A stretch of DNA of 64,000 nucleotides, taken from Novibacillus thermophilus. Lineage in GTDB: Bacteria; Bacillota; Bacilli; Thermoactinomycetales; Novibacillaceae. Both the position numbers and the translations under genes were made by a program. Where the stretch lies: the NCBI RefSeq assembly GCF_002005165.1, contig NZ_CP019699.1, forward strand, positions 1,426,001 to 1,490,000, in the 5' to 3' direction. The notes under the pieces are model-generated. The model ran no database searches and was not told the origin of the DNA. It saw only the letters and a program-made list of their open reading frames with translations. Shown here piece by piece: positions 15,548 to 50,202 of the stretch. Positions within the stretch are counted from its first letter, which is position 1; every line of letters begins with the position of its first letter.

Positions 15548-15895
15548 ATGCCGTTGGCAGAGTGGAAAGAAATGAAAACGTTAGCGGATTGGGAAGACGT
15601 GCTGTCCCAATCAGAATCTCAGCCTGTATTCGTGTTTAAACACAGTACGACGTGTCCGATCAGCGCGAACGCGTGGAAGGAGTTTACGGCGTACTTGGAA
15701 AGTGAACCGCGGGAAGATGTCTCTTATGTGATGGTGAAGGTCATAGAGTCCCGTGATGTCTCGAACAAAATTGCGAACGACCTCGGCGTGAAACACGAGT
15801 CGCCGCAAGCCATCGTGGTGAAAGATCGGAAAGAAACGTGGAATCGCTCCCACTGGGACATTACGCAACAAAGCATTCGGGAGGCTCTCAGTTAA
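15548..15895 (+). CDS. ytxJ: Monothiol bacilliredoxin YtxJ (BrxC family)
   Basis: YtxJ-type proteins have a thioredoxin fold and act as monothiol bacilliredoxins that remove bacillithiol from modified proteins. The 115-aa product has the single active cysteine in HSTTCPISANAW (about 33-44), the cis-proline region HESPQAIVVKD and the C-terminal HWDITQQSIREAL. ATG 15548 lies behind GAGGTGA. It is a single gene between trhO and a regulator on the opposite strand. Confidence 0.88.
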   Translation: MPLAEWKEMKTLADWEDVLSQSESQPVFVFKHSTTCPISANAWKEFTAYLESEPREDVSYVMVKVIESRDVSNKIANDLGVKHESPQAIVVKDRKETWNRSHWDITQQSIREALS

Positions 15896-15977
15896 CACGC
15901 TTAAAAAATGACACTCCTTATTCTCGAAAAAGTGATGACCGAGGCGAACATAAAGAGACGACCTGAAGGAGAAGGGG

Positions 15978-17176
15978 TTACGAATCGGCTGGAGGGCGAT
16001 CGTATTCGTAGGCTGCGATTGCAAACTCGATGGCGAGGCGTTTCTCGGGGAGCATGAAATCAGATCCGAGCATCTCTTCCAGCTTTTCCAAGCGGTTGTA
16101 CAACGTTTGACGGACGATGTACAGCTTCGCGGCTGTCTCCTGTTTCGACCCGTTACAGGCGAGGAACACTTTAAGTGTTTTCATCATCTCGCCGCCATGT
16201 TTTTGGTCGTATTCAATGACAGGTCGCAAATAGTCCATCATAAATTCGTAAAGTCTGTCCGTATCTTGAAAACCGGAGATGATGCGGAGAATGTGTAGAT
16301 CGTCATAAAAGACGTCTTCCCCCTCACCTGTTTTTTGTTGAATGTTTAACGCTTCCTGAGCGGTCTGGAAGCTTTTGTGCAAACGGCTCAGTTGTGCCAC
16401 GCGCTTGCCAATGCCAAATTGCACAGAAGGAGCGGGGAGTCGGAGAGACTGTTTGACAGATTGAATCCCCTTTTGGATACGCTGTTTCCAGTTTTCTTCT
16501 AACCCGTGGTCGATGAGAATGTACACGATGCGTTTATCGTCGCCGATTGGGAACAGCGAAAAACGCTGTCCGGAAAATGCCGTGCGAGAGACGATGCTCA
16601 ACCGCGCAAAAGTCGAATCGCGCAAAGGTTCATGACCGAACGCCAGGATACACGCGACGACGCCATTCGCCTTTTCTGATGCATGATGTGTGAGAAGATG
16701 GCGGCGTACGTCTTCTTCTCCGAACTTTCCCTCTAGCCAGTCGCGGATCCAACGCTCCTCTTGGAGGTGTTGTTGCTTCGCCTCATGTATGACGGTATGC
16801 AAATCTTGTGTGATGTCGATAAAGCGGACCTCGTTCGGGAATACGATGAGGGGAAGTCGTGTTCGTCTGCCAGCTTGCGCATATCGTCTGGAATATCTTT
16901 GAAAACGAGTCCGAGTTCGACACACAGACCGGCACAATCCCGCTCGATGAGCTGCTTGAGAAAAGAAAGGCGGCTCGCTTTCGTTTTTCCCCACCCGACC
17001 CCAGTGGTGAGAATGAGCTCATTCCCGTTGAGCAAGTGGCGGATTTCCTTCACTTCTACGATGTGAACCCAGTTCACGACTCGGTAAACGCCCTTTTGGC
17101 CTGATATGAGCGTCGCGCTTTTAAAGTGCGGGCGTTGCAGTACGTCGCGAACCGTCAGTTTAAAGGAATAGGCCAT
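15978..17176 (-). pseudogene. PucR-type transcriptional regulator, one frameshift
   Basis: Two minus-strand frames form one protein of about 399 aa. The first (start 17176) encodes the N-terminal PucR domain (KLTVRDVLQRPHFKSATLI, NWVHIVEVKEIRHLLNGNEL, LTTGVGWG) to KLADEHDFP. The second resumes with LIVFPNEVRFIDITQDLH and ends with the PucR C-terminal helix-turn-helix (LKVFLACNGSKQETAAKLYI, VRQTLYNRLEKLEEML). One more base in the four-G run (plus strand) at 16850-16853 restores it. PucR-family proteins control purine, GABA or polyamine catabolism; being divergent from mmsA, it probably controls the catabolic cluster to its right. The break is probably a sequence error. Confidence 0.85.
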
Positions 17177-43436: not shown

Positions 43437-44534
43437 TTGTACGCCAAACTGTACAGTGCGACGGTATCCGGCATTGACGGCCATATCGTCGAAGTGGAAG
43501 TGGACATATCAAACGGCTTGCCGCAATTTGATATCGTCGGACTACCCGATTCAGCTGTAAGAGAATCGCGGGACCGGGTGCGGGCGGCGATTAAAAACAG
43601 CGGACACTCTTTTCCCATGCAACGGATCACGACCAATCTGGCACCAGCCGACATGAAGAAAGAAGGCTCCCGTTTTGACTTGGCCATCTCCCTCGGCATA
43701 CTGCTGGCCAGCGGCCAGCTTCAAGCGGAACCGTTACAGCACACGTTGCTGCTGGGCGAACTGTCCCTTGAAGGCGTCCTGCGCCCGTTAAACGGCGTGT
43801 TGCCCATGGTCATGGAGGCCAAAGCCCGTGGCTTTACCTCTGTCGTGCTTCCAGCCTCCAATGCGGAGGAAGCGGCGTTAGTCGACGGCCTCGACGTCTT
43901 ACCTGTTGAAACGTTACAGCAAGCAGTCGCCTTTTTGCAGGGAGAGACACATCTCGAGCCATATGTTCGAACTCCGGTCGATCACGATGACCGACGTGTG
44001 TCGGAAGACTTTTCCGACGTGCGCGGGCAACATCACGTCAAACGGGCGTTGGAAGTGGCGGCGGCTGGCATGCACAACATTTTGCTCATCGGCCCTCCCG
44101 GTTCGGGGAAAACGATGCTGGCGAGGCGCATTCCATCTATATTACCAAATCTATCTGCAAAAGAAGCATTAGAAGTGACGAAGATCTACAGTACCGCCGG
44201 GCTTTTGACCGAACGGGGCAAACTGGTGTCGTCACGTCCCTTTCGGGCACCCCACCACACCATTTCCGCGGCTGGGCTCATCGGTGGCGGCACGATTCCG
44301 AAACCGGGTGAAGTGAGTTTAGCCCATCACGGGGTCCTTTTTTTGGACGAAATGCCGGAGTTCTCCAAAAACGCGTTGGAAGTGTTGCGCCAACCGCTTG
44401 AGGACCGGGAAGTGACCCTCAGCCGGGCTAGAGCTCAGTTCACGTTCCCCAGCGCTTTCATGCTCGTCGGGTCGCTCAATCCGTGTCCGTGTAGTTCTGA
44501 CCTATGGAAAATACATAGTTTATCTGGATATTAG
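43437..44534 (+). pseudogene. comM: ComM/YifB Mg-chelatase-like AAA ATPase, 5' part, split by integrative element
   Basis: ComM is a hexameric helicase that supports branch migration in natural transformation. TTG 43437 starts [20 protein letters not shown]. The N-terminal ChlI-like domain fills about residues 1-170. The AAA core has Walker [35 protein letters not shown] and Walker [11 protein letters not shown]. Family-like sequence ends abruptly after GSLNPCPC at about 44492; the next 14 codons are foreign and end at 44534. About 150 C-terminal residues are missing. The break coincides with the recombinase gene on the other strand, so the gene was cut by site-specific integration; the 3' part should lie beyond the window. 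Confidence 0.92.
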
Positions 44535-46089
44535 CTTTATCGCGTTTTTTACCAGGTGTTTTAATTGTATGAACAACAATATCACTGACTAGCGAATGAA
44601 TGATTTCCCTTTTCTCCCTATAAGACAAATCCTTATTAATTTTTTTTCTTAACTCTTGTAGTACTTTTTCAGCAGAAGACAATCGGTTTTTTACATCTTG
44701 GTTTTGCTTATTTTCTGCTTGCCATCGATGTAATTTTTCTAATAATTCTTGTTTTTCATCGTTAATCTTTTTTAATTGAAACTCAACATCTTCTGGAGTA
44801 ATTAACTTTTTTCTAAACAAATCGAGAATGCTTTGTTTTTCATTTTCCTTTGCTTCGATTGTATTTTTTAGAATTCCAATCTCCAAATCTGCATTTTTGT
44901 TAGTTGAGTTTTCTTTCTCAATATTCAATTCTCGCACAATCTCTTGTATTACCGACTTTGGTTTATCCATAAACTTAACAATATCTTGCCAAACTAATTC
45001 TTCAAGCCAAACTTTAGGTACGTTTTTACTTCTACATTTATCATAGACTGAACTTTCACCTACTTTTCCTGAACATACAAAATAATACTTAGGAGGTTTT
45101 TCTTTTCCTCCGTTGTAATATAAGGCATAATACTTTCTCCCGCACATTCCACACTTTATAAGTCCACGTAAAAGATTTTTTTCGTCTCTACTTTCATAAG
45201 AAGACAGGTTGTGATTTTTGATTGTATTTACAGCTTTTTCCCATAATTCGGGTGAGACAATTGCGGGAACTTGCCTTTCTATAATTTCTCTGTTTTTGTT
45301 CGATCTCTTGCCATAATAATGCATGCCTTTGTATGTTGTGTTATAAATAATGGATCTTACTCTGGATGATCTCCAATATCCTGACGTTTTTACCTTCCTC
45401 TTTCCTCTTTTTACTTTCCTGTTATCTTTAATATAAGACGTAGGGACCGCCATAGAATTGAGCAACTTGGCAACCTCCCTGGCTGAATGTCCCTTTTCTC
45501 CGATCAAATGATACATCATATATACGATGTCTGCCTCGGATTTTTCTAGTTTTGGAAGTGGAGTTTTATTTATCTGCAGATAACCTTCTTCATCAACGTA
45601 ATAACCATATGGAACAATACCGCCTAGCCATTTTCCTTTGCGGGCAGCTCTGTTTGCTCCGTGCCACATGCGTTCAATAATGGTTTCACGTTCGAGATCA
45701 GCAACCGCCGCAAGCATAGTGACAAGAAATCGTCCGGAGGGACTTCCAGAATCAAAATCTTCAGTCATTGATTTTACTTTAATACCGTGTTGATCCAGTT
45801 CATGTATGGCATTTAATATGACTCTTGCTGATCGGCCTAGGCGGTCTAGTTTGTAGACCAATATTACGTCGGCATGAATCTTTTGATTTTTTATGTCACT
45901 TAAAAGTTCGGCTCCACCGTTACGATCTCCAAGCTCAAGTGTCCCGCTAATCCCATCGTCTTGATAGATTTTAACCAAGTTCATTTGATGTAGTTCAGAA
46001 TACTTTTTTCCAAATTCAAGTTGCCCTTCGATCGTTCCTCTTTCTGACTGATCATCCGTTGATACCCTGGCGTACAAAATTACGTTCAT
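44476..46089 (-). CDS. Large serine recombinase (integrase)
   Basis: Large serine integrases cut and rejoin DNA at short att sites. The 537-aa product has the resolvase catalytic domain with nucleophile serine in [18 protein letters not shown] (Ser10), [16 protein letters not shown] and [21 protein letters not shown]. The recombinase domain with [19 protein letters not shown] follows, then a zinc ribbon [13 protein letters not shown]...C and a coiled coil (about 395-480). The ATG at 46089 has GAGGTGG at eight bases. The last codons and the TGA stop lie in comM-derived DNA, so its C-terminus changes on excision. The gene is more AT-rich than the chromosome. Confidence 0.95.
44481..44496. other. 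Left attachment junction in comM
   Basis: comM coding similarity stops within CCGTGTCCGTGT at 44481-44492. The element begins here. The crossover core must lie in or close to this stretch; the duplicate copy should occur at the right end of the element, outside the window. The exact core cannot be set from one end. Confidence 0.6.
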
Positions 46090-46226
46090 ACTATGTTCCA
46101 CCTCGCTTGGACATGGACAATTCTTCTTCCATGCCGATCATTCGAATAATTAGACGTTTTGATGTCACTCAAACTAATACCTTTCGCTTCAGACCTTTGT
46201 TTTATAGCACGAAGGTTATTTTCCAA
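46086..46226 (-). CDS. 46-aa miniprotein coupled to the recombinase
   Basis: A short frame from TTG 46226 whose stop overlaps the recombinase ATG (ATGA). The product is basic and helical at the start (NNLRAIKQRSEAKGISLSDI) and ends [15 protein letters not shown]. There is no clear ribosome binding site at the TTG, so translation may depend on the upstream miniprotein. Because it is coupled to the integrase it could be an excision or directionality partner, but I recognise no family. Confidence 0.45.
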   Translation of the reverse strand: MENNLRAIKQRSEAKGISLSDIKTSNYSNDRHGRRIVHVQARWNIV

Positions 46227-46412: not shown

Positions 46413-47003
46413 TCACGACCTGACGCCAGTCTGCCGATATAGTTTGTCTAATGCTCTTTGTGTCTCCTTTGACCGTCTCCTTGGTTGAGAAATAGGAGTG
46501 GTAGTCGTATTACGAAGATACAAGGCTGAATATATTCTTTGCTTGATTTGTTGCCATCTTTTTTTGGCAAGTTGGTGAGTAACTATGAAGGTATCGGATA
46601 GTTGCTCTATAATCAGTCTGTCTTCACTGGGGAAATTCAGTTTCTTAATCATATAAAAAGGTATTGCGGCATATAACTGAAAAATTTTCGCTTGGTTTTC
46701 CTGATAGTTCCGAAAATCAGAACACATGTTAAGTTGATTTCCCACATGTAAAATTGGATGGGCGAGTTCGTGAAAGAATATTTCCCTCATTTCTGGGAGA
46801 GACTTCGTAGAATCAAGAAATATAACAGACATTCGATTATCCCAGATAGCGCGTTCAGGAGTACTAGAAATGTAGACAATTTGTATGTTAAATACATTAG
46901 ATAAATATTCAATACTTAGTTCGGACGGATTTATAATGCCTTTTGAACTAAAAAGACGTTCAATCTTTTCCTCAAATGGCGTTTTGTAGTACATTTGTAT
47001 CAC
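46413..47003 (-). CDS. ImmA/IrrE family metallopeptidase
   Basis: A 196-aa protein with the zinc peptidase motif FFHELAHPILHVGN (HExxH at about 77-81) and a downstream helical domain. ImmA-type peptidases cut the immunity repressor of ICEs and phages and so trigger excision after DNA damage. The GTG at 47003 has GGAGGG seven bases before. The neighbour 120 bp upstream is an XRE repressor, the expected substrate, so these two probably form the induction switch of the element. Confidence 0.88.
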   Translation of the reverse strand: MIQMYYKTPFEEKIERLFSSKGIINPSELSIEYLSNVFNIQIVYISSTPERAIWDNRMSVIFLDSTKSLPEMREIFFHELAHPILHVGNQLNMCSDFRNYQENQAKIFQLYAAIPFYMIKKLNFPSEDRLIIEQLSDTFIVTHQLAKKRWQQIKQRIYSALYLRNTTTTPISQPRRRSKETQRALDKLYRQTGVRS

Positions 47004-47122
47004 TATATATCCCTCCCATAGTAAAAAAATAATAGAACATTTGTTCTATACATTTTACCAAAAAAAACCTATGTGAAAAGACCATAGGCTTATTTTTTTA
47101 CAGGGAGGTTGAGACGTGCTAT

Positions 47123-47467
47123 TTATTTTTCTTTTTTCTGTTCCTTTTTCAGCTTTCTAAAAATCTCCAATTGCATATCCAAATAATTTTTTTCTTCTTC
47201 TGTCAATCCATCAAGGTTATAAAAGGCAGTGTTAATTTCCGATTCCTGCTGGGAAGTTGTGACGGGGTCATTAGTTCGGCCTAAGAGCCAGTCAGAGGAT
47301 ACGTTAAATATATCAGCAAAAAGTTTTAATTCATGATCTTCAACAGGTCTTTTACCTGATTCTATTCGTGAAATCACGCTATTATTTATTCCGGTTTTTT
47401 CTGCTAGGTATAGTTGAGACCATCCTTTTTTTTGTCTTAGAAGTTTTATTTTTGATCCAACACTCAA
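47123..47467 (-). CDS. XRE-family repressor (CI-like)
   Basis: A 114-aa regulator with an N-terminal helix-turn-helix (KIKLLRQKKGWSQLYLAEKTGINNSVISRIESGKR, about 6-40) and a charged, lysine-rich tail that could dimerise or be the ImmA cleavage region. The start is TTG 47467 with a weak site. It is divergent from another small XRE gene, with three operator-like palindromes between. It probably represses the plus-strand genes of the element. Confidence 0.85.
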   Translation of the reverse strand: MSVGSKIKLLRQKKGWSQLYLAEKTGINNSVISRIESGKRPVEDHELKLFADIFNVSSDWLLGRTNDPVTTSQQESEINTAFYNLDGLTEEEKNYLDMQLEIFRKLKKEQKKEK

Positions 47468-48295: not shown

Positions 48296-48314
48296 GGGAG
48301 AGGAGAAACATGAA
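48296..48314 (+). promoter_or_regulatory. Orphaned ribosome binding site and start codon left of the IS
   Basis: GGGAGAGGAGAAAC is followed by ATGAA at 48310-48314, which is the left copy of the target duplication. Before insertion this was the translation start of the gene now beginning at 50239. Confidence 0.75.
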
Positions 48315-48406
48315 CCCGAGTTCGACAGTTGCTAGGTAAACGAATGCCCCTCAAAGCTTTGTGTATCAAGGTTTTGAGGGGTAAAAAGGGCATAATTATT
48401 GTGTTA

Positions 48407-50095
48407 CTAGCTTTTCGGTTTGATTTCTAAAATTTCAGGAGGCAGATTCACGCCTACTTTATTGAAAATCTCTTTCTGTTTGGCGGTTGGTGTCGTCGTA
48501 CGATATAGATCTCCATCCTTCGTGGTGAAATGACCCACTTGAAGCCTTTGGACCTCACGACGCACGGAATCCCAACTCGAGCCGGTTTCATTTTCAATCA
48601 ACCTGACAAGCAAAAGTGCCAGCCAATTAATGATGATATGAGCTCGAATTCGTCTCTCTAGCCGATGGTACATCGGCCGTATGTTTAATGTGGACTTTAA
48701 CGTTCGAAAAGCGCTTTCGACTTGAAGTAACTGCTTATACCCTAACGCAATATCCTCAAGGGATAACGTATCGTCTGATGTCCGGATTAAGTATTTGCCA
48801 TCGTATTTCTCTTCATCCCGTATGGCTTGCTTATTCAGTTTCAAGGTACCATCTTTCAATTGGCGGATATATTTCCCGTACACTTTATGCACCCGTAAAG
48901 CACATGCCCGTTTGTGGTGGGCTTCATTCGGTAATTGTTTCAAATTTTCAAGCTGCTCCTCAACGGCACAGATGATTTCCTTTCTTTGACGGCGGTCACG
49001 TTCGGCTTCTTCCGGATTATAGGCGATCACATAGCGTTTTCTGGCTTCGCCATCTCCAACAATCGATTCTTTTACTAAGAGGTTTTCACGAATGGCATGG
49101 AACCGTCCACGTTTATTAAGTGCAGCTTCCACATCCTTTTTGCCTGCCCGCATCCGTTCGCCAATAATATAATGTCCGGCACCACGTTGTAGGATGCGTA
49201 GATTTTCTTCGGAGGAAAAACCACGATCCATCACATGGATTATGCGCCCAAGGCGCCAACCCATCAAATCTTTCTTCACTTCCTCAATCACATTCATATC
49301 CATCGTGTTTCCTGGCCAAGACCACACTTTAATGGGAATGCCTTCACGTGTAACCGCTAGTCCAATCACCGTTTGTACGAGGTCCGGACGTTTATCTTTC
49401 GAGTATCCTTGAAGCCGAAAATCGTCATCTTCCGGGGTTTCGTTGGGAGCGACTTCAAAGTAACTGGATGTCGTATCGAAATAGAGAAGATCAACTTCCA
49501 GATTGAACAGGTTGGAAACATTGTCAAATACACGATCTTCCAACAAGCTTTGGGCATCCAATAACTCGTCCATGGCACGGTAAAGCTGATGGCAATGAAC
49601 ACTTGGAAGCCCAGGGAGATAGACATCTTCGGATATCCATTCTTCCATTCCTAATTTACTGGAAGGGGCAAGCGCACGGTTTGCGACCATTGCAAAAATG
49701 GCACGTTCTAAATTGATTTCGTGCTTGCGCTCTTTAAAAATCTCTTCGAGAATCGTATCCATCCCTAATTTTTTCCAAAGTTGATCAAATAGCCAAATGC
49801 CACCCAGTTGCTTGACAGACCGGAATAAAAATTCAGCTGTATCTCTAATTTTTTGTTTCGACTTCAGTGCCTCTTCGGGTGAGAGGAATCTATTGATACT
49901 TTGGGCCAGTCGTTCGAGTACGTCCATATCGAGATCATCTTCACGACCGAATGAATAGATCACCTTCGCTTTCGCATATTTGGCCTTCGGATCCCACACG
50001 TTATGAGCGAGCTGAATGTACGAAACTCTTGATCCATCTTTGTTTTTGCGAGTCACCCTTCTAATATACATGCCTATATTATAATTCATAAACAT
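48407..50095 (-). CDS. IS1634 family transposase
   Basis: The 562-aa DDE transposase has the N-terminal YIRRVTRKNKDGSRVSYIQL, the first aspartate in LLYFDTTSSYFE (about 208-219), the second in HVMDRGFSSEENLRIL (about 290-305) and the glutamate in LLQVESAFRTLKSTLNIRPMYHR (about 472-494). The YREK-like IS4 signature is replaced by the IS1634 form. Length and motifs suggest it is active. An ATG further in (at 50089) is also possible. Confidence 0.93.
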   Translation of the reverse strand: MFMNYNIGMYIRRVTRKNKDGSRVSYIQLAHNVWDPKAKYAKAKVIYSFGREDDLDMDVLERLAQSINRFLSPEEALKSKQKIRDTAEFLFRSVKQLGGIWLFDQLWKKLGMDTILEEIFKERKHEINLERAIFAMVANRALAPSSKLGMEEWISEDVYLPGLPSVHCHQLYRAMDELLDAQSLLEDRVFDNVSNLFNLEVDLLYFDTTSSYFEVAPNETPEDDDFRLQGYSKDKRPDLVQTVIGLAVTREGIPIKVWSWPGNTMDMNVIEEVKKDLMGWRLGRIIHVMDRGFSSEENLRILQRGAGHYIIGERMRAGKKDVEAALNKRGRFHAIRENLLVKESIVGDGEARKRYVIAYNPEEAERDRRQRKEIICAVEEQLENLKQLPNEAHHKRACALRVHKVYGKYIRQLKDGTLKLNKQAIRDEEKYDGKYLIRTSDDTLSLEDIALGYKQLLQVESAFRTLKSTLNIRPMYHRLERRIRAHIIINWLALLLVRLIENETGSSWDSVRREVQRLQVGHFTTKDGDLYRTTTPTAKQKEIFNKVGVNLPPEILEIKPKS

Positions 50096-50173
50096 TATAA
50101 TGTAAACACAAATTTTATTAAACGTGTGCCTATGTAAAATTCAAAAAATTTTAAGCACAAATCCACGAAAAGA

Positions 50174-50202
50174 TTGATATCATAGGAAATACATTTTATT
50201 AA
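50174..50202 (+). promoter_or_regulatory. Outward promoter in the right end of the IS
   Basis: TTGATA at 50174-50179 and TATTAA at 50197-50202, 17 bp apart, read out of the IS into the gene at 50239. The match is good but untested. Confidence 0.45.

Follow-up and report, generated by a model that had tools for sequence, protein, structure and literature searches.

The integrase gene and the interrupted comM gene

The window, that is, the whole stretch of 64,000 nt analysed here (C1:1426001-1490000), belongs to the genome of Novibacillus thermophilus, which consists of a single contig of 3.63 Mb. It carries a gene for a large serine integrase (int), the 3' end of which lies within an interrupted comM gene (Table 1). 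Resolvase, Recombinase and Zn-ribbon domains (PF00239, PF07508 and PF13408, respectively, each above cut-off) were detected in the integrase, and it matched the phrog_95 integrase with an E value of 2.9e-104. On the plus strand, comM was read as ...SLNPCPC, with the codons CTC AAT CCG TGT CCG TGT at 44475-44492, and the comM homology ended thereafter. The 3' part of comM was located at G000:C1:3196754-3197041(-). The two halves of comM, and hence attL and attR, are 1.73 Mb apart and inverted relative to each other, so that the chromosome was rearranged after integration. For this reason the window copy of the prophage could not simply excise, and an integrase acting on the distant and inverted attL and attR would be expected to produce an inversion rather than an excision.

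The ImmA-like and ImmR-like genes upstream of int (46413-47467) are presumably arranged as in ICEBs1-type immunity modules. The insertion sequence farther upstream (window 48300-50200) has 100% identical copies at C1:1086410 and, inverted, at C1:3590012. A single inversion between the IS copies at 1474300 and 3590012 (100% identical, inverted) was considered as the cause of the split comM and was rejected, because the distances did not fit.

Table 1. Features of the integrase region, with positions numbered within the window
Feature	Position	Strand	Remark
comM 5' part (Mg-chelatase-like ATPase)	43437..44485	+	Broken at the first Cys codon of NPCPCG
Large serine integrase, prophage form, 541 aa	44476..46101	-	GTG at 46101 is the first start codon of the ORF; true start uncertain
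TGA stop of the integrase, within host comM DNA	44476..44478	-
Putative crossover dinucleotide, TG (+) / CA (integrase strand)	44484..44485		Based on junctions of relatives
Core common to attL and attR, exact match, TGTCCGTG	44484..44491		attR copy at L005:1946-1953
Phage-derived attP arm within the integrase coding region	44486..44513		Palindromic partner at attR
IrrE/ImmA-type M78 peptidase gene	46413..47003	-	Upstream of int
HTH_3 repressor-like gene, ImmR-like position	47123..47467	-	Upstream of int; putative role
DDE transposase of insertion sequence	48407..50095	-	~2.3 kb beyond the integrase gene start

Reading frame across the reconstructed attP site

The preliminary description of this DNA had stated that the stop codon of the integrase is supplied by the target gene, and the TGA (44478-44476, minus strand) that ends the C-terminus ...QNYTDTD* does sit in the interrupted comM. 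The same description had assigned all of NYTDTD together with the stop to the complement of comM; this held for the final T (partly), the D and the stop, but NYTD is encoded by the phage, since the crossover is placed at 44484-44485 and phage DNA extends from about 44486. Across the NYTD codons, attP resembles attB. When the host flanks were joined at the core, the uninterrupted comM site was restored, and when the phage sides were joined, CCATAGGACTGGCTTACACGCTTGTCCGTGTAGTTCTGACCTATGG was obtained within attP, an imperfect palindrome, with 20/28 positions palindromic in the window attP.

Through the reconstructed attP, the integrase frame remained open and ...NYTDTD* was replaced by ...NYTDKRVSQ..., with a total length of 695 aa. 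The proposal that the frame would run into different DNA on circularisation, with a changed C-terminus, was thus borne out by the assembly of attR and attP and the translation of the recombinase as a 695-aa fusion; the frame gained an in-frame tail, and attP with the same terminal codons and stop was not found. The tail (~155 aa) is an otherwise orphan ORF with two XRE-type HTH domains (HTH_3 twice in the window and L044 tails) and is present once in the whole genome, at C1:3197206-3197673. The next long ORF past the tail encodes a transposase, presumably of IS256 type. As judged from these sequences, integration changes the encoded integrase.

The fusion was also found in unsplit form. In Paenibacillus phage Paisley it is one annotated gene, PAISLEY_44 ('serine recombinase', 695 aa), which is 41% identical to the window fusion in an alignment of 695 columns that includes 22 gapped ones. 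Unsplit fusions of 704-713 aa were found in the virus contigs L044-L048, and comM was not found in the records of L045-L048, though such records may be fragmentary. The attP reconstructed from Desulfotomaculum copahuensis (L109) and the virus contig L047 were 94.0% identical over 1200 nt with no gaps. The prophage fragments L042 and L043 follow the Paisley sequence without a mismatch for 1984 nt, as far as the crossover; in L042, the match extends for 3 nt further and is followed by divergence, and its last 61 nt, CPCGYLSAEHETQGCTCTPL, are comM-like by eye, a stretch too short for comM searches. Because of the identity to Paisley, the host of L042 and L043 is taken to be P. larvae. Given the rearranged genome, with attL and attR far apart and inverted, the window fusion could be an artefact of joining unrelated DNA. 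This is extremely unlikely, as both comM halves carry the same core, the attP arms are palindromic, and the same fusion occurs in the relatives described below, in Paisley and in the unsplit virus contigs.

Conservation of the frame at the comM junctions of relatives

Relatives were collected from the same order and class, from 61 viral-contig loci and from 80 genome loci. The window integrase as the lone query found no relative in the viral contigs, but an alignment query did find relatives there. Within the locus, comM was found downstream of int in 63/122 classified loci, of which the 45 classed as 'other' comprise many whose sequence stops shortly after int; L152-L182 are outside this classification. 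In 40 genomes, a search was made for the second comM half and its junction was fetched, which yielded 34 pairs from 33 genomes, the window included, and the addition of Acetoanaerobium noterae brought the set to 35 pairs from 34 genomes. Eight of the 40 were left unpaired. G069, G032 and L122 had the same match places, and L112 had those of G007; the other half was ambiguous or absent in L128, comM was intact in L119 and L124, and L131 was ambiguous. Many pairs join different contigs, and the pairing assumes one comM per genome; L141 entered the count twice, as one integrase with two far sides, only one of which can be its partner, and G128 (L148) and G075 (L012) have more than one comM piece each. 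Of 23 records of viruses and phages searched for comM, 6 matched, and no pair was made from these. The hosts in the integrase tree are mostly Bacillota. One genome, that of Lucifera butyrica (L241 and L242), has two comM 3' junctions with different tails as well as a third comM 3' fragment, possibly from two related prophages at one site.

The comparison with comM integrases of other strains, which the preliminary description had put forward, extended the result beyond the window: the tail was present at the far comM junction in 31/35 pairs and was in frame in 31/31, the tail-bearing pairs sharing ancestry and so not being independent events. The tail model was built partly from tails that it then found, the reading frames having been established earlier. 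The 31 tails comprise 24 full-length ones placed by script, five placed by hand, a short one in L012 with the second HTH only, and that of Acetoanaerobium. The distance from the crossover to the tail stop is 445-502 nt in the full-length tails (n=29) among the first 34 pairs, which means that the linker varies in length while the frame is retained. L136 has another codon phase at the crossover and still keeps the frame, and in L104 the integrase is frameshifted further upstream in int.

The first automatic core finder gave no core in 12/34 pairs and placed L107, L137 and L140 differently from the later rule. Crossovers were finally placed by a rule anchored on the comM codons, and by hand from the printed sequence for L016, L107, L108 and L115, which the rule could not place, and for the frameshifted L104. 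Only TG/CA stays common where the comM codons of relatives differ from the attP arm (e.g. L011, by eye). The putative crossover dinucleotide TG/CA fits the junctions, but it was assumed by the script for every pair. Among the 34 pairs, 25 insertions have orientation A (L011-type) and nine have orientation B (L012-type), and the match of the dinucleotide with the orientation carries no evidential weight, as it is built into the rule, which presupposes CA or TG by orientation. Between L012-type and L011-type loci, the central dinucleotide, as assumed by the method, is reversed between near-symmetric arms. The attP sites were quasi-palindromic, with a mean of 16.1/28 symmetric positions (n=33 attP) versus 7.3 (sd 2.3) after shuffling. 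The integrase stop lies beyond the crossover, in host DNA, in 31/33 integrated cases including the window, which is more than chance. Past the crossover, the stop follows at a median of 19 nt with int facing the 5' part of comM (24 cases) and of 91 nt with int facing the 3' part (nine cases).

In the deposited Acetoanaerobium phage record (L040/L250, PP197248.1), ~0.5 kb of comM is present beside int at 15622-16110, without the tail, and the host chromosome carries the tail, in frame, at the junction on the other side. Wrongly set record boundaries or a capture of host DNA by the phage may account for this. The tail-less label of L040 in the integrase tree came from the deposited record and is wrong, as the host chromosome has the tail.

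The tail was absent in 4/35 pairs (L017, L121, L148 and L129), in which the reconstructed attP frame ends either 11-12 nt ahead of the crossover or 82-88 nt past it; these tail-less rows are scattered across the integrase tree. A related clade with Acidobacteriota members (L084, L085, L130, L134 and L146; support 100/99) carries the fusion as an uncut ORF. L138 is also listed among the related uncut integrase-HTH fusions. In L084:2917-6788, the fusion is followed by a 428-aa ORF and, at a distance of ~1.65 kb, by a comM fragment that ends at the usual insertion point, NPCPC; the tail can thus apparently stay on the enzyme in what looks like an integrated element, with attL outside the gene. 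The genome comM is in two pieces in L134 and L146, an intact comM is present in L130, and a scan of viral contigs with the L084 fusion gave three loci. The existence of the uncut clade, L084 included, indicates that such integrases do not need the split to exist, and together with the four pairs without a tail it weakens a general need for a switch.

Properties and possible roles of the tail

The structure of the L044 fusion was predicted by AlphaFold2 with a mean pLDDT of 77.9 and a pTM of 0.34. The pLDDT fell below 50 at residues 127-134, 291-298 and 525-556, with the crossover at residue 528 and the HTH helices from residue 559. For the tail alone, predicted from six sequences, the mean pLDDT was 80.3. 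The predicted fold of the tail resembles Cro/CI-type repressors and controllers, those listed being Stl, DdrO, C proteins and P22 c2; no Foldseek match of the tail reached an E value of 0.001 or better, the best among the matches listed being 2.2e-3, and no known directionality factor or RDF was among the listed matches. By the Nei-Gojobori method, dN/dS was 0.00-0.24 for the tail and 0.07-0.38 for the adjoining 150 integrase codons (8/10 chosen pairs computable), the lowest tail values resting on very few changes (dS 0.009 and 0.055). On these ratios, the tail is judged to be under purifying selection.

No start codon with a good ribosome-binding site was found at a conserved place in the stranded tail. 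Independent translation of the tail in the prophage, with a start codon of its own, was therefore rejected as a candidate, although starts in the upstream comM antisense are possible. The tail was also considered as an ssrA-like degradation tag, and this was rejected because the 30 listed tail C-termini do not resemble ssrA tags.

The phage gene is very probably an integrase-tail fusion that is cut by its own integration; the split, the frame, the conservation of the frame and the unsplit phage form are read directly from the sequences. In this reading, it consists of an intact large serine integrase followed by a flexible linker and a pair of XRE-type HTH domains; attP sits in the linker, where recombination with comM cuts the gene. 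The prophage integrase would keep the standard domains and gain 2 to about 93 host-encoded residues, mostly with a host stop, and the tail would be stranded at the other prophage end without a conserved start codon. Free and integrated DNA would then encode two integrase isoforms, selected by the rearrangement itself. If both isoforms are actually produced and the tail works in recombination in the free phage only, as we infer, its most likely function would be to aid or gate the attP x attB reaction, and the tail-less enzyme of the prophage would be suited to RDF-dependent excision and not to re-integration. An accessory DNA-binding role of this kind, in the free phage only, is put forward tentatively. 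The whole explanation, comprising the split gene, the two isoforms and the accessory role of the tail, is reasonably probable and is the best one that we can offer.

Alternatively, the placement may be neutral: the tail would be an ordinary extra domain, attP would have fallen by chance in a tolerant linker, and both isoforms would work alike. The truncated form does retain the standard domains of large serine recombinases, four of the 35 pairs lack the tail, and in the ORFs observed from the related clade it is uncut, all of which suits this reading. It is nevertheless rather unlikely in view of the purifying selection on the tail and of a frame kept in all 31 tails despite the variable linker, among integrases that span about 39% to 73% identity to that of Paisley (best segment).

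The tail might instead be a transcription regulator, made in the free phage from the promoter that serves int and the genes upstream of it, and disconnected by integration. The XRE/Cro-CI type domains, the repressors and controllers among the nearest listed PDB folds (best E 2.2e-3), the ImmA- and ImmR-like genes that precede int on its strand and the stranded tail without a conserved start and ribosome-binding site are consistent with such a regulator. The uncut fusion of the related clade, with attL outside the gene in L084, argues against it, and its chance of being right appears low. Since the related clade retains the tail fused to the enzyme, the accessory DNA-binding role is favoured.

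Directionality control through a C-terminal switch, as suggested in the preliminary description, is conjectural. Integration might act as an isoform switch, in which the phage form carries out or licenses attP x attB and the tail-less form cannot do so and is used for RDF-dependent excision; this version is doubtful. In its strong form, the suggestion would make the tail itself the directionality factor that sets integration versus excision. Engineered integrase-RDF fusions do change direction (PMC5737554), but they favour attL x attR and reduce attP x attB, and here it is the free phage, whose task is to integrate, that has the fused form; as the listed matches of the tail also include no RDF, the strong form is improbable. 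The engineered serine integrase-RDF fusions are like the present one in that a C-terminal fusion can alter direction (PMC5737554), but they are artificial, their partner is an RDF and not an XRE domain, and they are uncut by integration. The phrog_95 integrases and large serine recombinases share the domain order and sequence; in comparison, the fusion adds a tail of two HTH domains in the free form and has attP inside the gene. The two isoforms may provide a ready comparison for how serine integrases choose direction, and, if the switch is true, directionality would be partly written into the DNA rearrangement. Integrases of this comM-inserting family that are annotated from prophages would have a host-derived end and lack ~155 residues of the phage gene.

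According to the passages concerned, serine recombinase targets are enriched in competence genes (PMC10083194), and further cases of the integration-dependent repressor systems discussed below are given in PMC9934374 and PMC6109161. The P. larvae phage integrases are described in PMC6070908 and PMC11860570, the passages of which on these integrases make no mention of attP inside the integrase gene. Among the matches listed from the open-licence literature, as represented by abstracts and passages, none described a serine integrase gene from bacteria that is split by the attP it contains. Mycobacteriophage BPs and its relatives likewise have attP in a coding gene, with C-termini that differ between virus and prophage (PMC4557955), but there the repressor gene is cut, and it loses a piece with an ssrA-like degradation tag. 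Here the cut gene is the integrase gene, the lost piece consists of two DNA-binding domains, and the HTH repressor-like gene (47123-47467) is separate, so that attP is not in a repressor gene. The archaeal suicidal (SSV-type) tyrosine integrases have the recombination site in their own gene, which is split on integration, and self-disrupting recombinases are given as exclusively archaeal in the relevant part of a review (PMC8371274). A self-splitting integrase gene, said there to be confined to archaea, recurs here in bacterial serine-integrase elements (31/35 pairs). The two fragments of the SSV-type tyrosine recombinase are described as inactive (same part of PMC8371274), whereas the bacterial serine integrase in the window, going by its sequence, loses only an added C-terminal tail and keeps its standard domains. 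The lost part is no more than a regulatory-looking tail, so the enzyme may remain active; if integration does act as an isoform switch, the system would be a bacterial serine-recombinase counterpart of the archaeal self-splitting integrases, without the suicide.
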